This document shows positions 40,046 to 63,583 of a stretch of 64,000 nt of DNA, piece after piece. The notes under the pieces were generated by a model. That model made no database searches. It was not told where the DNA came from and worked only from the letters and a program-made list of their open reading frames with translations. This DNA is from Allomuricauda sp. NBRC 101325. Lineage in GTDB: Bacteria > Bacteroidota > Bacteroidia > Flavobacteriales > Flavobacteriaceae. A program made the position numbers and the translations under genes. The DNA is taken from positions 974,649 through 1,038,648 of the forward strand of contig NZ_BSQF01000001.1 of NCBI RefSeq assembly GCF_030268205.1, given 5' to 3'. Position 1 is the first letter of the stretch. Each line of letters begins with the position of its first letter.

Positions 40046-40119
40046 GGTCCTATAGCTCAGTTGGTTAGAGCACCTGACTCATAATCAGGTGGTCCCTGGT
40101 TCGAGCCCAGGTGGGACCA
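40046..40119 (+). tRNA. tRNA with CAT anticodon (Met or lysidine-Ile)
   Basis: A 74-base cloverleaf. Acceptor GGTCCTA pairs with TGGGACC (one G-T pair), discriminator A. The anticodon stem-loop is CCTGA-CTCATAA-TCAGG, giving CAT. The T arm is CCTGG-TTCGAGC-CCAGG. CCA is not encoded. It is not an initiator type, since the acceptor 1-72 pair is G-C; elongator Met and the Ile tRNA modified with lysidine cannot be separated with certainty. The 3' 42 bases of this gene form the core of the element's left attachment site. Confidence 0.93.
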
Positions 40120-40122
40120 CTT
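40078..40122. repeat. attL: 45 bp direct repeat in the tRNA 3' end
   Basis: Bases from the anticodon loop to two bases past the tRNA (starting CTCATAATCAGG, ending GGGACCACTT). An identical copy is at 63539-63583. Flanking bases differ, which sets the repeat borders exactly. The tRNA stays intact because the element carries the replacing 3' part. Confidence 0.93.
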
Positions 40123-40656: not shown

Positions 40657-41448
40657 TTATTCTTCCCAAATAATGCTAATTACACCATCAGGGCCGTATA
40701 TACATTTTTCATAGAATGCCCTGCCATTGTCTTGAGGCCTATAAATCTTGAACCAATCTTGCGCCTCGATTTCAACTATTTCATCATAACGTTTGCCATC
40801 TTTGAAAAAGTCCGACATCAAGGTATTGATAGGGATGGAATCCTTTCCGTCCAGTAAGCTTTTAAAAGGAAAATCATTGCTCGGAAAGTACCATTCTATC
40901 CCAAATCCTTTTGAGTAGATAACAATGATGGGATGCGTCCCTATTAGAGCAAATCTCAAAGCAGCTGCTGTAAGACTCACTTGGAAGGTATCCGAGATGT
41001 GCTTTGTTAGGTCGAAGTTAAAGGGTTTACCTAGGCATTCTTTAAGAAATCTAAACTCTGGCATTAATAGGCAAGAAGCAAAAAAGTCGGCTTCCCTTTC
41101 CAATCGGTAGTGAAAAGATTGATTGGTCTTTGAGGGATGTGGTTTTAACTTACCTGAAATAATTCCCTTTCGATGGTTTTCTATGATACAATGTGCCAGT
41201 TCATGGGCCATAGTGAACCGACCCCGGGGAGTATCAATATGGTTTCCCCGAGAGGTATTGAGATGAATAAAAAAACTATTGTCGTAGACCGTCATGCCAT
41301 CGAATGCATTTCCATAGTCGTCCTCGGCATATGGGATTTCCTCATCCTCCAATATCTGCTTCAAGGGGGTCACGGTGGTTTCATAGGTCATGGCAATAGA
41401 CTCGGCCAAATTACCTATACTTCTTGGTGGAAGGAACTTATTCTCCAT
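40657..41448 (-). CDS. ImmA/IrrE family zinc metallopeptidase
   Basis: Zinc protease of the family that inactivates repressors after DNA damage (ImmA for ICEBs1, IrrE in Deinococcus, CapP in some CBASS loci). The 263 residues have the zinc motif MAHELAHCII (HExxH, about residues 83-87) and a downstream EREADFFASCLLMP that supplies the third ligand Glu. The N-terminal part contains LAESIAMTYETTVTP. Its ATG overlaps the stop of the upstream small gene by 11 bp, so it is translationally coupled as the last gene of a three-gene operon divergent from the CBASS operon. Its target is not identified; the neighbouring sigma-like or small protein is a reasonable guess. Confidence 0.85.
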   Translation of the reverse strand: MENKFLPPRSIGNLAESIAMTYETTVTPLKQILEDEEIPYAEDDYGNAFDGMTVYDNSFFIHLNTSRGNHIDTPRGRFTMAHELAHCIIENHRKGIISGKLKPHPSKTNQSFHYRLEREADFFASCLLMPEFRFLKECLGKPFNFDLTKHISDTFQVSLTAAALRFALIGTHPIIVIYSKGFGIEWYFPSNDFPFKSLLDGKDSIPINTLMSDFFKDGKRYDEIVEIEAQDWFKIYRPQDNGRAFYEKCIYGPDGVISIIWEE

Positions 41449-41770
41449 TCCTCTTCTTTTCCTGGTTTCGTTTCATTTTTTTAAGTATATCCTCGGGTAC
41501 AGTTTCCCCCTTTCTTGCGGCCATCCTAAGTTGTTGAATTGAATTCTCCTCATCTTTAAGCAAGGGAATCTGCCCTATGGATTTTGATTGAACCCTACCT
41601 TCGATGATTGCATCAACATTAACAGACTTATCAATGAGTTTGTAATCGTAGCCATCATGAAGTATTTCAAATTGTCTCAACTCCCATGAATTTTTGGGAA
41701 AGAGATACCCTAAAGGGGCTAACCATTCATTGAGGTTTTCGGCTTTCATTTCAATACTATTTTTTCCCAT
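41438..41770 (-). CDS. Small protein between sigma-like and ImmA/IrrE genes
   Basis: Unknown function; 110 residues with the ATG at 41770, preferred because it overlaps the preceding gene by 14 bp and gives a compact protein. The frame extends 15 codons further upstream. The sequence has a beta-like segment (LRQFEILHDGYDYKL), a middle IEGRVQSKSIGQIPLL and a basic helical tail (PEDILKKMKRNQEKKRNGE). No helix-turn-helix is evident. Overlaps on both sides show tight co-expression with the sigma-like protein and the protease; an anti-sigma or adaptor role is conceivable. Confidence 0.6.
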   Translation of the reverse strand: MGKNSIEMKAENLNEWLAPLGYLFPKNSWELRQFEILHDGYDYKLIDKSVNVDAIIEGRVQSKSIGQIPLLKDEENSIQQLRMAARKGETVPEDILKKMKRNQEKKRNGE

Positions 41771-42431
41771 GGATATTATTGAGATATTGATCAACGTATT
41801 CGCATGCTTCACCATAATATTTACGGATTGATGCCTGGGCGAGGTTCAGACGCTCTCTTAAATTTTTAGTGGCAGATCTAGGAGGATATTCACCACCTAA
41901 GTGCTCATAAGTCTTATATGTGAGATAAATTATTCTTTTTTTCTCGTTTAAACCATTTAGAACGGGCTCCAAAATCTCCAATCGTTTTCGGAGGCTACGC
42001 CGCGTCTCTAAATTTTCACCGGCAGCAAAGGCCACCATTTCGGGAATGGAGGTTATTACAGCCAATTCTTCCTTTTCAGGTTCATGGCAAGTGCTTTTTT
42101 GATGATAATTGGCAAGTTGGGAACCTGCGATTCGATAAAGCCATAGCTTAATGCCTTCCTCGACGTTTGTGGCATTGACCTTCTTTAAGTCAAATGAATT
42201 GGCATATTTCCAGACCCTTGAAAACGTACAATCCCGTATTTCAAGTGCAACCGTTGGGGAATAGTTCCATTTATCACATATAATCTCACATTTTTTGAGA
42301 AGATCATCATCAAAGTGTTGACAAAACTCCCTAAATGCATTTTTCGCATCATCAGGCATATCATCCTTCCACGAAATAATCGTCAAAAGTTCTTCGAGAT
42401 TGGATTCCTCCGTTTGGCCAGTGGTTTTCAA
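41757..42431 (-). CDS. Sigma-70-like regulator
   Basis: A 224-residue protein resembling an ECF-type sigma factor. Residues about 60-110 look like region 2 (EIRDCTFSRVWKYANSF, then IKLWLYRIAGSQLANYHQK, matching the AWLYRIA-N-x-x-x-D-xx pattern). Residues about 155-215 look like region 4 (LNEKKRIIYLTYKTYEHLGG, then RERLNLAQASIRKYY, a helix-turn-helix end). Confidence in sigma activity is moderate because region 2 is shortened. First gene of the coupled operon with a small protein and an ImmA/IrrE protease. The 22 bp palindrome at 42462-42483 lies 31 bp upstream. Confidence 0.7.
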   Translation of the reverse strand: MKTTGQTEESNLEELLTIISWKDDMPDDAKNAFREFCQHFDDDLLKKCEIICDKWNYSPTVALEIRDCTFSRVWKYANSFDLKKVNATNVEEGIKLWLYRIAGSQLANYHQKSTCHEPEKEELAVITSIPEMVAFAAGENLETRRSLRKRLEILEPVLNGLNEKKRIIYLTYKTYEHLGGEYPPRSATKNLRERLNLAQASIRKYYGEACEYVDQYLNNIHGKK

Positions 42432-42461
42432 AAATCAAATGTGGTTGTTAACTATATACCT

Positions 42462-42483
42462 AAAACCGTGATATCACGGTTTT
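42462..42483. promoter_or_regulatory. 22 bp perfect palindrome, candidate shared operator
   Basis: AAAACCGTGAT followed directly by its reverse complement ATCACGGTTTT. It lies in the 274 bp gap between the divergent sigma-like/ImmA-IrrE operon and the CBASS operon, 31 bp from the sigma-like gene start. Length, symmetry and position suit a dimeric regulator. Confidence 0.7.
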
Positions 42484-42705
42484 TGTAGTAGGGTGAAGCC
42501 CATACTATTATTTAATGGGTTTCTACAAAAAATCAAAATTCACAATTGAGGGCTGGGGATTGTCCGAGAATAAGAATACTCCTGAGATAAAAGTAAGAAA
42601 AAAGTGGAATTTAAAAAAAAGCTATTTAATAATGTTAAAAAAATACCCTCTCCTTGGTTTTAGGGCTAAACCCCTCGGTCAAGATATGGAGGAAAAATTA
42701 AAAAT

Positions 42706-43719
42706 ATGAAATCATATACCGACTTCAAAATACTTTCCCTTGATGGTGGAGGGATAAAAGGACTCTATGCAGCAAAGCTTCTGGCACAAATAGAGAAAAA
42801 GACAGGAAAATTGATTGGGGAACATTTTGATATGATTTGTGGAACATCCACTGGTGGGTTATTGGCTTTGGGCATCACAAACTATATCTCCTGTGAAACA
42901 ATAGCACAGTTCTATATAGAGCATGGTCCATTAATTTTTCCAAGAGGAAATTGGTTCCAAAGAAAATTTCGCACCTTTTCACAGATCTGTCTGGGAACCA
43001 AATATGACAATCAGAAGTTGCAAGATGCACTAAGCGATCTTTTGGGAAAAGAAAAAACAATGGCGGATGCGAACCACCTTATATGTATCCCATCTTTCAA
43101 TATCACAAAAGGGAGACCTTCAATATTTAAAAAACCTTTTGGCCCATATCATAGGGACGGAAGATTTACCATGATGCAAGTTGCCCTTGCAACTTCTGCA
43201 GCTCCCACATTTCTGCCTGCAATAAGCATTGAGGGAGATCAATTCATTGATGGTGGAATTTACAATAACGATCCAAGTATGATAGGTTACACTGAGGCCA
43301 TGGATCATTTTATTGGTAAAAATAAACCCTTGGCTCCTCGGGGAATACATTATGGCAGGGTTTCCATGTTAAGTATAGGGCTTCCTGGACAGCCCATAAG
43401 TTAAAAACCAAAGATTACCTCCACCAGATCATTTTTAGGTTGGAGGGAGAGACTTGTTGGCACGGCAATTAGCGGTTCTGATTACATAACACAGTATCAG
43501 GTTAAAAAATTGATTGAAATAGGCAATGGAAATTACTACAGGTTAAATCCTCCACAGTTGTCACCAAATCAATTAAGGCACATAACCATGGATAATACTG
43601 CTCAAACGGCCATTCGCACCTTGAACACCTATGGTCAGGATGTTGGTGATGATTTCACTTGTACCAAATGGTCGGAAATAAACAAATTCTTTAATAATTC
43701 AAAAACATATAAATTTTAA
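42706..43719 (+). pseudogene. capV: Patatin-like phospholipase, CBASS effector CapV, with in-frame stop
   Basis: Patatin-fold phospholipase; in CBASS such effectors are switched on by a cyclic nucleotide and degrade the membrane. The first 232 codons hold all catalytic features: oxyanion loop LDGGGIKGLYA near residue 9-19, nucleophile Ser48 in GTSTG, and the Asp182 of IDGGIYNNDP. An in-frame TAA at 43402-43404 then stops translation, and the reading frame continues for 104 more codons to 43719 (including DYITQYQVKKLIEIG and LRHITMDNTAQ), family-like throughout. So one substitution appears to have split the gene, or the base is an assembly error. The CD-NTase gene follows 3 bp after the distal stop. 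Confidence 0.85.
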
Positions 43720-43722
43720 ATT

Positions 43723-44700
43723 ATGGCTAATACAAATAAGCAATTCCAAGATTTTGACGAGAATCTATCGATTCCTATGTCGAAAAGGCAAAAAATGAGT
43801 GAGTCCCGGGAAGCAACAAGGGAAAGAATCAGTCTTTGGTTCAAGAATAACCAACCAGGATACCCGATAAGCTTTTGGATTCAAGGAAGTCACAAGAACT
43901 CCCTAAATATTCGCACCGAAGGAGACGATTGTGACCAAGACGATGGAATCTATGTTGACCGAAATCCTGAAGATTCTGTTGATGGCACAACCCTTCAGGA
44001 ATGGATTTTTGAGGCCTTGGAAGGTAGTACATCCACTACCCCGGAGCATAAATCTAGGTGTATTCGAAATTTTTATAAACCCAACAATTTAGGAACATTT
44101 CATATCGACTACCCCTCATACTATAAAACAGAGGATATGCCCCACCCTATGCTAACAGTAAGAAATGGCGAATTGGAAGAAAGCGACCCTCAGGAATTTA
44201 CCAAATGGCTCAATGATATTACCGATGATGAAGGTCAATTAAGAAGATTGATTAGATATCTGAAGGGGTGGGCAGATTACAAAAGAAAGTCCATTGATAT
44301 GCCGAATGGGTTGACCCTAACTGTGTTGGCCTGCAATAGCTATATTGCTGTGGATTCTAGGGACGACGAAGCCTTATATGAAACATTGCTGGGCATTCAA
44401 TCTGTTCTGCAAACAGAATGGAAATGTATAATGCCATCTACTCCGAATGACGACCTCTTGGCCAATACGGATTACAACTTTCGTGTCAATTTTATGAATG
44501 CCCTATCAGATTTGGTTTCAGATGCCGAGGAAGCTCTTGAGGAAAGTTCTAAACATAGGGCATCCAAGCTATGGAAAAAACATATGGGGACCAGATATCC
44601 GTTGGCCCCAGAAGAAAATACGCTTGGCAATAGAGCGGCCTTGGCAGGCTTGATAGGAAACAACAAACCCTACTTTGATAATGGAGAATCAATTCATTAG
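43723..44700 (+). CDS. CBASS cyclic nucleotide synthase, DncV-like CD-NTase
   Basis: Nucleotidyltransferase that makes a cyclic nucleotide signal on phage infection. The 325 residues carry the GS motif (Gly55-Ser56, QGSHKN) and the acidic site D-C-D-Q-D-D-G at 69-75, matching the D-x-D-x-D-D-G layout of DncV; Asp71 and Asp73 should bind the catalytic metals. The helical half has KWLNDITDDEGQLRRLIRYLKGW and then NGLTLTVLACNSY (OAS1-C/DncV-type). The position between a patatin effector and an E2-like gene supports CBASS. Its product (for example a cyclic dinucleotide with G and A) cannot be read from sequence. The end overlaps the E2-like gene by 20 bp. Confidence 0.85.
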   Translation: MANTNKQFQDFDENLSIPMSKRQKMSESREATRERISLWFKNNQPGYPISFWIQGSHKNSLNIRTEGDDCDQDDGIYVDRNPEDSVDGTTLQEWIFEALEGSTSTTPEHKSRCIRNFYKPNNLGTFHIDYPSYYKTEDMPHPMLTVRNGELEESDPQEFTKWLNDITDDEGQLRRLIRYLKGWADYKRKSIDMPNGLTLTVLACNSYIAVDSRDDEALYETLLGIQSVLQTEWKCIMPSTPNDDLLANTDYNFRVNFMNALSDLVSDAEEALEESSKHRASKLWKKHMGTRYPLAPEENTLGNRAALAGLIGNNKPYFDNGESIH

Positions 44701-45298
44701 GGATTTGGATGAGGCCAAAAGGTTATTTCCTTCTTTGGAATATCACCATCTCCCAAATAAGCGATTTGTACACAAGGTGACGGGAACATTTGATATTATT
44801 GATGGAGAAGAAAATCATTGGGGCGCATTTAGTGCGTCCCTTTATTTTACCGATTCCTATCCCAAAGGATTTGCACTACTTAAGGATAACTCCAGGGCTT
44901 TTCCTTGGGACTTGAATTGGCATATTGATGAGAAAACGGGGTTATGTTGTGTGTGTGGCCCAATAGAAAGGGAGGAAAGAGCTGCAAAAGGGATTTCAAT
45001 TTTAGGTTTTATTGAAGGGTATGTTATACCATTTTATGCCAATCAAATCTATAAAAAGGAATTTGGTTTCTACAAAAACGGGGAATATGCTCATTTTATA
45101 GAGGGTATCTGGGAGGCGTTGGAAGAAGAATTTGGCACTTCCGATAGAAAACAAATCAAGCTAATGTTAAATCAAATGCGTTCCAAAAGAGGAAGGAATG
45201 AAGATTGTTTTTGTGGAAGTGGGATTAAGTTTAAGAAGTGCCATATGAATAGAATTCCTTATATCGAAGCAGCTGCCAAACAAATCTCCCTCAATTAG
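44681..45298 (+). CDS. E2-like CBASS accessory protein with SEC-C-type tail
   Basis: Ubiquitin-conjugating-fold protein of type II-short CBASS, where a lone E2-like protein is thought to attach the CD-NTase to another molecule and prime it. I take the ATG at 44681 (MENQFIRDL; 205 residues); a TTG at 44675 is also open. Candidate catalytic Cys are 89, 90 and 92 in GLCCVCGPIE, after WHIDEKTGL. The C-terminal end has a zinc-binding SEC-C-like signature: Cys176, Cys178, Cys187 and His188 in CFCGSGIKFKKCH. No E1 or JAB gene follows. The SEC-C tail is unusual to me for an E2-like protein and deserves a comparison. Overlap with the CD-NTase suggests coupled translation. Confidence 0.75.
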   Translation: MENQFIRDLDEAKRLFPSLEYHHLPNKRFVHKVTGTFDIIDGEENHWGAFSASLYFTDSYPKGFALLKDNSRAFPWDLNWHIDEKTGLCCVCGPIEREERAAKGISILGFIEGYVIPFYANQIYKKEFGFYKNGEYAHFIEGIWEALEEEFGTSDRKQIKLMLNQMRSKRGRNEDCFCGSGIKFKKCHMNRIPYIEAAAKQISLN

Positions 45299-61143: not shown

Positions 61144-62181
61144 ATGAAAAAAATAAGTTTGTCAAGGAAAGAACTATATAATCAAATTTGGAGCCAGGGT
61201 CTACAAAAAACGGCCGCGTGTTTAATTGTTAATCCATCTAGCCTCAAAAAATGTTGCACTGAGTTTAATATCCCCACACCTCCTAGTGGATATTTTTCAA
61301 AGCTGAGGCATAATAAATTTGAGCCCAAACCTGTGTTAATGGGTGACTTTCAAAAGCAAATAACACTTTCGATTTACAGAAAGAAATCGTCCAAAAAAAA
61401 TCAAGAAACCGCAAAATTGATCAAACCACATCTGTTAGTCCTTGAAGCAAAAAAAGCACTTAAAGATGTAAAGGAAAAGTCTATTAACATGGGTGCCCCG
61501 AGAATGTTGAATATCGGAGGAGAAAAATTGAGTATTAGTGTTAGTAAGCATATGACAGAACCAGCTCTTATCTTCTACAACTTATTAATTAAAGAGTTGG
61601 AAAGCAGAAAACATTTAATGGTTACAAAAGAATACTATGGTTTGGTTATTAAAATTGATGAAAGCTATTTTGAGTTTTCACTAAGGGAGAAGACTCGACG
61701 CCAGAAAAACGATGAGGAAAAATGGATCACATATGACTACATACCCAATGGAGAACTAGTCTTTAAAATTCTCAGCTACCCTCGGAAAGAATGGACATCA
61801 TCAAAATCCATTTCATTATTGCAAAAGATACCTGCAATAATTACTTATTTGGAAAAGGAAGCGGAAGAAGAAAGACAATGGGAAATTGAAAATGAACAGA
61901 GAAAACAACGTGAAGAAGAGGCAAAGCTTGAAAAGGAACGTATTGAAAGAATTATGTCCGATGAAATGGAGAAGTTTAAAAGACTTTGTGTTGCATCAGA
62001 TAGATATCACCAAGCAAAAAACCTTGGAGAATTTTTAAAAGCCTTAGGGGATAAAAAAGGAATGATGATAGATAAGAACTACATGCAATGGGCTCTGGCT
62101 AAAGTAGATTGGGTAGACCCATTGAAAGATAATCATGACCCAATCCTTGGTAAACATGAAGATTATTTAGATACTTTATAA
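61144..62181 (+). CDS. Unknown protein with HTH-like N-terminus and coiled coil
   Basis: A 345-residue protein with an N-terminal segment common in plasmid and island proteins (LSRKELYNQIWSQ, then SLKKCCTEFNIPTPPSGYFSKL) that looks like a helix-turn-helix recognition unit, a middle beta-rich part (YYGLVIKIDESYFEFSLRE) and a long coiled coil (about 235-285, EEERQWEIENEQRKQREEE). The function is not known. It converges on the integrase gene with a 6 bp overlap of the ends. Its place next to the integrase may point to a role in element maintenance or to defence. Confidence 0.6.
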   Translation: MKKISLSRKELYNQIWSQGLQKTAACLIVNPSSLKKCCTEFNIPTPPSGYFSKLRHNKFEPKPVLMGDFQKQITLSIYRKKSSKKNQETAKLIKPHLLVLEAKKALKDVKEKSINMGAPRMLNIGGEKLSISVSKHMTEPALIFYNLLIKELESRKHLMVTKEYYGLVIKIDESYFEFSLREKTRRQKNDEEKWITYDYIPNGELVFKILSYPRKEWTSSKSISLLQKIPAIITYLEKEAEEERQWEIENEQRKQREEEAKLEKERIERIMSDEMEKFKRLCVASDRYHQAKNLGEFLKALGDKKGMMIDKNYMQWALAKVDWVDPLKDNHDPILGKHEDYLDTL

Positions 62182-63387
62182 TAGAACTTCTATTGCACTA
62201 TCAATTTCAGATGTATCTAATTCTTTCAAATAAGCCTGAGTAATAGCCATGTTTTGATGGCCCAATGATTCGCTTATTACATCGGTTGCAACCCCTTTTT
62301 GCTTAAGACAATTGGCAAAGCTATGACGTGCCACATAACTTGTCACAGATTTTTCGATTTCAGCCAAATCGGCGATGGCTCTCAAATCCTTGTTATATTT
62401 TTTAAGCACTTTGGTCTTACGGTTTTCAATCTGGCTTGGGGTTAGCTTGTCATGGAGCAAAATCGGAAACACATATTTTGTTTCTAATGAATTTTTACGA
62501 TAATAATCCAAGATTTCCTGAACCGGAGCCAAAATCTTAATAGTAAAGTTCCCCTTGGTCTTGGAGCGTGTGTAATATATGTTCCCCCCTTTGATGTCTT
62601 TCCATTTTAATTTCATCATATCGGCAAAGTTCATCCCGCGGGTATAGAAGCTAAAAACAAAATAGTTTTTGCTGTTTAAAAGCTCTTGATTTTCAGAAAT
62701 GTCAACATTGATTATTTGTTTTACTTCTTCAAAGGTAAGTGCCCTTTTGGCTCCCCTTCCTTTTAATCGCGATACTTTGTATGTTCGAAAAGGATATAAA
62801 GATTCCTTTACAATGTTCCTTCTGATGGCTTGGTTGTATAGAGCCCTTATGGATCGCATCCTTACGCCAATTCCGCCATCTGTGCCACCACGTGAACGTA
62901 GATATGCCTCATATTTTTCAAGAAATGCTGGGGTAATGTCGGTAAAGGAAAGATCTTTATCAAACTTTAAATATCTCTGGATAGATGTACTGGTATCATT
63001 ATGGAAACGGGCATTTCCCATTCTGCCTGCTAGTTTCAACTCCTCTATTATTTCATCCCAAAAGTCAAAAACGTTTCTTCTTATAGGATTGAATGACAAC
63101 CTAAAGTTATGTTCGAATTCCCTTAAAGAGAAATCGTTTTTCTCCATTTCCAAATCTGCTATCACCCTTAACGCCCTGTCCCGAAATTTCAGCAACAACC
63201 GATTGTCTTGAATAAAATTGCTGTGGTTCTTATTGAAGGAGCCAGTACGTTCATCCCATTCTTTTGGAAAGGCATTATAAATAGTTTTAAAGTATTTAGA
63301 TCGCCTATCTTTGGTCACACGAAGGCATACCGGATAACTTCCATCGGAAAGCTGTTTTTTTCTTAAAACAGTGCGTACATTAATCAT
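62176..63387 (-). CDS. int: Tyrosine recombinase (integrase)
   Basis: Site-specific recombinase that should insert the element into the tRNA gene and, with a helper, excise it. The ATG at 63387 (MINVRTVLRKKQLSDG) gives 403 residues; the frame opens 15 codons upstream without conservation. The N-terminal arm-binding domain (about 1-90) includes YFKTIYNAFPKEWDE, then a SAM-like core-binding region (about 100-190). The catalytic domain has YTRGMNFADMMKLKW (Arg), YVARHSFANCLKQ (His and Arg), LGHQNMAITQAYL (His and the nucleophile Tyr). It ends 107 bp after the coiled-coil gene's convergent end and its start lies about 150 bp from attR. Confidence 0.93.
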   Translation of the reverse strand: MINVRTVLRKKQLSDGSYPVCLRVTKDRRSKYFKTIYNAFPKEWDERTGSFNKNHSNFIQDNRLLLKFRDRALRVIADLEMEKNDFSLREFEHNFRLSFNPIRRNVFDFWDEIIEELKLAGRMGNARFHNDTSTSIQRYLKFDKDLSFTDITPAFLEKYEAYLRSRGGTDGGIGVRMRSIRALYNQAIRRNIVKESLYPFRTYKVSRLKGRGAKRALTFEEVKQIINVDISENQELLNSKNYFVFSFYTRGMNFADMMKLKWKDIKGGNIYYTRSKTKGNFTIKILAPVQEILDYYRKNSLETKYVFPILLHDKLTPSQIENRKTKVLKKYNKDLRAIADLAEIEKSVTSYVARHSFANCLKQKGVATDVISESLGHQNMAITQAYLKELDTSEIDSAIEVLL

Positions 63388-63402
63388 TTTCAGCGGTGTT
63401 TT

Positions 63403-63423
63403 GGGTACAACATAGGTACAACA
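63403..63423 (+). repeat. Right integrase arm-site-like repeat
   Basis: The same 21 bases as 40172-40192 (two GGTACAAC units in direct order), in the same orientation. It lies 15 bp upstream of the integrase ATG, so it may also let the integrase control its own gene. Confidence 0.7.
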
Positions 63424-63538
63424 AATGGTCAATTAAAGGTAGTATTGATACTTCTAAATGAAAAGAAAAAATTTGTAAAACATTGAAAATCAATATACAA
63501 GAAACCAAATGAAAATTTATGATAGCTATAAAATGCTG

Positions 63539-63583
63539 CTCATAATCAGGTGGTCCCTGGTTCGAGCCCAGGTGGGACCACTT
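63539..63583. repeat. attR: 45 bp direct repeat of the tRNA 3' end
   Basis: Identical to 40078-40122 base for base (starting CTCATAATCAGG, ending GGGACCACTT). The bases before it (GCTG instead of CTGA) differ from the tRNA, so this copy has no 5' half and is not a working tRNA. The original tRNA terminator follows at 63584. Confidence 0.93.

Follow-up and report, generated by a model that had tools for sequence, protein, structure and literature searches.

A CapP operon with a sigma-like gene as a candidate damage switch for CBASS and other immune operons

The original account of the CapH-CapP pair, with its ssDNA-activated control of CBASS and of other immune operons, is reportedly that of Lau et al. 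in 2022. The known mode of control for suicidal immune operons is the removal of a repressor, be it CapH, CapW, or CapS. In the portions of three papers covered here, CapP is activated by ssDNA and cleaves CapH, relieving repression, and the named partners of CapP and of the ImmA/IrrE proteases are all repressors (PMC13373217, PMC10904395, PMC10233336). In sigma/anti-sigma systems, again as covered in part, a sigma gene followed by an overlapping small gene is the usual layout (PMC8103513). The sigma-factor content of the portion of PMC13373217 considered here concerns anti-sigma kinases and their antagonists, and we recognized no description of a sigma factor working with CapP in open-license full texts, a scope that does not extend to the original CapH-CapP paper.

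A putative regulatory trio and the divergent CBASS operon

The locus described here lies in the window, by which we mean the whole 64,000-nucleotide stretch of Allomuricauda DNA that was analyzed. It comprises three minus-strand genes (40657-42431), referred to below as the trio, each of which overlaps its neighbor: a sigma-like gene (41757..42431, TTG start, 224 aa), a small-protein gene (41438..41770, 110 aa), and a protease gene (40657..41448, 263 aa). The small-protein ORF as listed starts at 41815; its homologs start at the position corresponding to the 41770 ATG. Analysis of the window bore out the three overlapping frames of a first-pass annotation, along with its claim that they diverge from CBASS genes across a perfect 22-bp palindrome.

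The protease is, by sequence, CapP. It matches the PADLOC capP profile at 3.3e-56, Pfam Peptidase_M78 at 3.2e-12, and the CapP entry 7t5t of the PDB at 2.1e-7, and as an ImmA/IrrE-type metalloprotease it carries a HELAH motif at residues 82-86. The first-pass annotation had envisaged a different kind of control switch for CBASS, and this was right insofar as the XRE repressor is replaced by the sigma-like and small proteins but wrong insofar as the protease is CapP itself and not something apart. Given this protease, and a small protein that matches the CapH profile, the trio is best described as a variant of CapP-based control.

The operon on the far side of the palindrome is, by its gene content, type II CBASS, all of it on the plus strand. 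Its possible first gene, a 64-aa ORF (42515..42709) starting 31 nt past the palindrome, had no family match. The CBASS patatin-like effector frame (42706..43719) contains an in-frame TAA at 43402-43404, so that the effector gene is broken as sequenced; its N-terminal piece matches NCBIfam CBASS_lipase at 1.3e-71 and its C-terminal piece at 0.017. The remaining genes encode a CD-NTase, the CBASS cyclase (43723..44700; PADLOC Cyclase, 3.6e-101; NCBIfam cGAS, 1.2e-50), and an E2-like protein with a SEC-C motif (44675..45298; PADLOC E1-E2, 1.3e-47, and E2, 1.7e-40; SEC-C, 3.8e-8). The regulator and cyclase frames are open, and the stop in the patatin frame could reflect decay, phase-like variation, or a sequencing error. 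The 3' end of tRNA-Met is directly repeated over 45 bp (40078-40122 and 63539-63583); together with a tyrosine recombinase (62176-63432), this repeat marks an integrative island of ~23.5 kb that holds the whole module.

A divergent sigma-like protein and its small partner

We describe the product of the first trio gene as ECF-sigma-like, a divergent two-domain homolog. Taken singly, it was assigned no Pfam family, and its matches to NCBIfam sigma models were weak and below cutoff (E of 0.005-0.05; 17.1 bits against a cutoff of 126.4 for the best, and 15.9 against 42.9). The profile of the 70-member family to which it belongs matches the ECF factors SigW (9.9e-6) and RpoE (4e-5), mostly over region 2, and an AlphaFold model (pLDDT 87.7, pTM 0.54) has two helical domains containing the sigma2 and sigma4 helices. 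In a Foldseek search with this model, ECF sigma factors ranked first, albeit weakly (best E of 4.5e-3), with no match at an E of ≤0.001 and TM scores of 0.22-0.34 for the top matches. Pfam regions are sparse within the family (Sigma70_r2 in just 2 of 70 members, Sigma70_r4 in 1 of 70), and sigma character is plainer in the more distant trio members than in the window subfamily: all four that were tested have Sigma70_r2 above cutoff (1e-11, 2e-11, 6e-9, and 5.5e-9), with Sigma70_r4 at 1.8e-8 in one and below cutoff in another.

Region 2.2 of ECF sigma factors bears a conserved acidic/Gln signature which, judged by eye, is absent from the window subfamily and present in three distant members (L123-L125). 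The erosion of sigma signatures in the window subfamily, as seen with Pfam, would suit a different role, that of a DNA-binding repressor or co-repressor of sigma descent which, with the small protein, holds the palindrome and shuts both promoters until ssDNA-activated CapP cuts the small protein and relieves both operons, as in canonical CapH-CapP. The repressor partners named for CapP and the ImmA/IrrE proteases, in the portions of the papers covered, are also in keeping with such a role (PMC13373217, PMC10904395, PMC10233336). It leaves unexplained, however, why the sigma2 domain is conserved. The two sigma domains are conserved almost equally in the family (2.19 and 2.32 bits, against 1.81 for the linker), which is more than a DNA-binding remnant would need. 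On balance, we regard a repressor as unlikely, though well worth keeping in view.

A second class of sigma-like proteins (class 2, profile A8) matches PDB sigma-H at 4.6e-6, and two of six tested have Pfam sigma matches (L219, below cutoff, and L222, as against none in L213, L225, L226, and L154). A link between this class and that of the window (A6) was discarded because only the last helix-turn-helix aligned, at a probability of 6-10. In two other loci (L004, 1420-2764; L005, 1420-3105), related sigma-like genes overlap a gene for a 240-aa protein rather than a small protein and CapP, and a multiubiquitin gene follows the pair in L005 (Pfam, 1.8e-6). The idea that this partner is Panacea-like was dropped, Pfam having given the L005 protein no family.

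The small protein had been called an unknown protein of 110 residues; the size is correct, but the protein is not wholly unknown, since it matches the PADLOC capH profile at 1.4e-7 over nearly the full profile length, as does that of a relative, L002, at 9e-13. These scores invite the view that it is a true if highly diverged CapH, itself dimerizing on the palindrome, with the sigma-like protein as an accessory. The profile is a loose XRE-type one, however: it fires in all 14 control genomes as well as in 183 of 296 genomes from the order, so that the match is weak ground, and we rejected an ordinary CapH. No Pfam domain, and hence no Pfam HTH, was detected in the small protein, whereas a canonical CapH has HTH_3 at 1e-11; its AlphaFold model is helical and of low confidence (pLDDT 72), with no credible fold match and none that is HTH-like; and the best match in a PDB profile search was MecI, at an E of 0.2. 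The small proteins of L111, L113, and L123 had no capH match, and no XRE-type HTH CapH lies directly upstream of capP at the window trio. An attempt to tie the small proteins to XRE CapH through a common tail was abandoned at profile-comparison probabilities of 4.9 for A9 and 0.2 for A7, and a comparison of A7 with A9 was likewise poor, at 13. A likeness of C-terminal motifs, noted by eye alone, links RMAARKG..LP of the window type to ARAAREG..P and FRNLENL of distant types. Taken together, these results make a diverged CapH improbable.

The alternative that we propose for the small protein is an anti-sigma factor that is also the CapP substrate. Pfam, PDB profile, and fold searches found no known anti-sigma domain in it. 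Its gene overlaps the sigma-like gene in 67 of 70 trios, which is the layout expected of an anti-sigma factor, and overlaps capP in 69 of 70 (both counts by longest-ORF starts).

Distribution of the trio and its neighbors

A CapP-alignment scan of 84,980 species genomes, from which the best 80 of 130 relatives were kept (a set biased toward the query), recovered the full trio in 70 of the 80 loci, with 67 distinct sigma proteins. Of the other 10 loci, five lie at a contig end or have a broken CapP gene (L065, L081, L088, L107, and L109), three do have a sigma-like gene, to which the profile gave a weak score or none (L098, seen by eye; L111 and L113, recognized with Pfam), and two, from Roseicella and Phenylobacterium (L112 and L114), have an XRE CapH. 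Going by record titles, the 70 trios come from Bacteroidota, except for two Fodinibius and one MAG labeled Erysipelothrix.

Less biased samples of whole genomes were also searched with PADLOC capP at an E of ≤1e-20, at which none of 14 controls fires. The gene was found in 24 of 246 Planctomycetota-group, 44 of 299 Pseudomonadota-group, and 35 of 345 Bacteroidota genomes (the first two groups being named after the title of L113 and the lineage of Roseicella), and 67 loci with a long capP match were classified, short matches and full-length places without a returned locus being left aside. The gene upstream of capP was of XRE type in 24 of 26 Pseudomonadota loci; no locus had a sigma gene, and two had neither. 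In Bacteroidota (n = 28), 22 loci had a sigma gene, 3 an XRE gene, and 3 neither, and in Planctomycetota (n = 13) the corresponding counts were 8, 2, and 3. Profile A8, itself made from the proteins concerned, underlies 10 of the 22 sigma calls in Bacteroidota and 1 of the 8 in Planctomycetota; the kinship of these proteins with sigma factors depends in turn on the PDB sigma-H match and on Pfam in L219 (below cutoff) and L222. Two of the Planctomycetota loci counted as having neither carry a Sigma70_r2 gene (L155, below cutoff; L159, above). Among the 67 loci, a sigma-like gene and an XRE CapH never occur together upstream of CapP; each replaces the other.

The divergent partners of the 70 trios, with representative neighbors identified by PADLOC and Pfam, are CBASS (41), multiubiquitin of the Bub type (8), other E1/E2/MBL operons (6), and Pycsar (4); 11 trios have no partner call, three of them for want of flank. 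Where at least 3 kb of flank was available, defense families (CBASS, Pycsar, multiubiquitin, and E1/E2) occupied the divergent side in 57 of 65 cases, compared with 1 of 62 for the downstream side, a control that is not fully independent, because the families counted had been chosen from clusters that are common on the divergent side. For the window's own subfamily, then, the first-pass annotation's refuting outcome of a trio mostly apart from defense genes did not arise. On a Chryseobacterium plasmid, the public annotation lists a sigma-70 family factor, a hypothetical protein, and an ImmA/IrrE protease, with Pycsar genes divergent from them.

Farther afield, recognized defense families lie on the divergent side in 6 of 20 class-2 or distant trio regions (L240, L243, L244, L245, L257, and L258), on which account we gave up the notion that all trios serve defense; one more region, L239, has what looks by eye like a ubiquitin-like operon. 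Four class-2 trios are divergent from look-alike proteins of 227-229 aa with a GKxSGxFGD motif (L242, 3594-4283; L247, 6672-7358; L248, 2747-3430; L249, 3845-4528), possibly an unrecognized partner or effector family. Three distant trios with clear sigma factors (L250, L251, and L252) have ordinary chromosomal genes around them and no recognized defense genes; the trio may therefore have a part in other responses too.

The intergenic motif and promoter boxes

The palindrome, AAAACCGTGATATCACGGTTTT, is exact at 42462..42483 and is contained in a longer putative operator/promoter motif of 31 bp, TAC...GTA (42457..42487), which in a form of 28-31 bp occurs in 41 distinct loci. A GTGA box follows on the plus strand at 42493..42496, on the defense side. 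The exact palindrome occurs once in its own 3.69-Mb genome; two mismatches admit two more places, against 11 per strand for a backward-read control pattern, and three or fewer give 2 matches in the window against 0.54 expected.

In the spacers of relatives, related inverted repeats stand 10-60 nt ahead of the sigma start. By patterns composed after inspection of the 66 distinct spacers, 24 of them have type I, the window's kind, where shuffles would yield 0.07; another 26 have one of three further types, and 16 have no motif. The palindrome thus recurs in varied form within the window's own subfamily, contrary to the other refuting outcome named in the first-pass annotation, a palindrome that is not conserved. 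Palindrome strength was rejected as a sole test, with P ≤ 0.05 in 23 of 66 spacers and 0.01 reached in 13, and so few strong palindromes mean that the case leans on the recurring motif. Because type I precedes CBASS, Pycsar, multiubiquitin, and E1/E2 operons alike, the motif tracks the regulator rather than one effector type.

Conserved tiny proteins often open the divergent immune operon right past the motif, before different immune types. One kind has 57-58 aa and starts MATNPPKD (L041, L042, L044, L048, L057, and others), and a second has 41 aa and starts MAKDSSGKKFNRIPEH (L047, L050, L062, L066, L076, and others). The 64-aa ORF of the window, at the same place, looks unrelated to either.

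A terminator or RNA hairpin would also be palindromic, and arms that contain G+C, with T residues after them on the plus strand, fit one; the trio would then regulate something else and owe its neighbors to joint transfer, on an island such as the one delimited here by 45-bp repeats. Yet the motif closely precedes start codons rather than standing at gene ends and recurs in varied sequence, and a one-sided defense link (57/65 against 1/62) is not expected from joint transfer alone. We consider this reading very improbable.

The consensus of the Bacteroidota housekeeping -7 box is TAnnTTTG. In 58 distinct spacers, ended at hand-chosen divergent start codons and leaving out 10 loci without a clear start and the duplicate L056, this box occurs on the trio strand in 34 and on the defense strand in 3, compared with 17 of 58 control starts of other divergent genes from these loci. 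Over whole intergenic regions, the counts are 36 of 60 and 6 of 60, where shuffles lead one to expect 15.3 and 8.1. The P value for the strand difference, 3e-10, is overstated because the loci are related by descent. The window spacer has the box on neither strand. GTGA within 24 nt of the TAC...GTA motif is one-sided as well (defense side in 16 of 41 distinct loci, trio side in 0 of 41); a looser form is less so, at 26 and 17 of 41.

These patterns bear on the choice between a sigma factor and a sigma-derived repressor. ECF promoters are not usually palindromes, and palindromes suit dimeric repressors. Of 10 motifs with the long spacing of type II, 3 have the trio's housekeeping box between their arms, as would be seen for an autorepressor, and several multiubiquitin loci show, by eye, a half-motif next to that box. 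The type III motif stops 3 nt ahead of the sigma start codon, so close that it cannot be an ordinary trio promoter. A repressor acting on both promoters, on the other hand, would leave the defense operon without a recognizable housekeeping promoter (3/58).

A proposed switch and its relation to known systems

With a defense operon lacking the housekeeping promoter signature and a sigma gene overlapped by a small gene, a sigma/anti-sigma pair is the simplest reading, and we put at about even the chance that the trio is a CapP-based damage switch with a sigma factor as its output. In the uninduced cell, the small protein, an anti-sigma factor with a CapH-like tail, would be made alongside the sigma-like protein from the next, overlapping gene and would hold it. 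Phage infection or DNA damage would produce ssDNA and activate CapP, as published for canonical CapP; the activated protease would cut the small protein and free the sigma factor, which would bring RNA polymerase to a defense promoter at or beside the palindrome and switch the immune operon on. The event at that promoter would be activation rather than relief of repression.

We count in favor of this sigma model the sigma homology, the conservation of both domains, the gene order with its overlapping small gene, the occurrence of the unit in 70 of 80 loci, the one-sided defense link, the substitution for XRE CapH, the biases in housekeeping box and strict GTGA, and the published activation by ssDNA. 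Against it we count the palindrome itself, the window protein's failure to pass any curated sigma cutoff, the few Pfam sigma matches in its family, the lack of a fold match at an E of ≤0.001, the missing region 2.2 signature (by eye) in the window subfamily, the small protein's unlikeness to anti-sigma families, the box between type II arms, the position of the type III motif, the looser GTGA counts, and the window's lack of a box on either strand.

A broader claim, which we find possible if a shade harder to credit, is that CapP-controlled immunity outside Pseudomonadota is mainly sigma-run: two or more sigma subfamilies, whose small partners differ, would have taken the place of the XRE repressor, and derepression would have given way to a sigma/anti-sigma switch, released by proteolysis, through which CBASS, Pycsar, and ubiquitin-like operons are transcribed upon phage or DNA damage. 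If true, a sigma factor for immune operons would embody a different logic, the activation of a private promoter instead of the relief of a housekeeping one, and CapP would be one damage sensor wired to two transcription outputs. This would explain how Bacteroidota silence CBASS, Pycsar, and ubiquitin-like systems, and the combination of a sigma-like protein, a small protein, and CapP would be a simple marker for new immune operons.

The comparisons that follow hold for the portions of the cited sources that were covered. The trio resembles CapH plus CapP in its CapP-family protease at the edge of an immune operon, its small gene overlapping capP, and its CBASS and Bub partners (PMC13373217, PMC10904395, PMC10233336); it differs in having an ECF-sigma-like gene ahead of the small gene and no XRE HTH repressor, as well as a conserved palindrome and a defense strand without the housekeeping box. 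ImmR/ImmA and DdrO/IrrE(PprI) have in common with it the protease family and damage-linked cleavage of a regulator, but their regulators are HTH repressors, with no sigma factor named in those portions (PMC10233336, PMC10904395). CapW/BrxR and CapK plus CapS are likewise damage-responsive regulators beside immune operons, the former a WYL regulator and the latter a kinase with a STAS repressor, and neither involves a protease or a sigma factor (PMC13373217). ECF sigma/anti-sigma pairs that proteolysis releases, such as RpoE/RseA, share with the trio a two-domain sigma homolog whose gene is overlapped by a small one downstream, along with a protease (PMC8103513). Unlike those pairs, the trio has a soluble ImmA/IrrE-type protease, no membrane anchor, and no known anti-sigma domain, and the target adjoining it is an immune operon.
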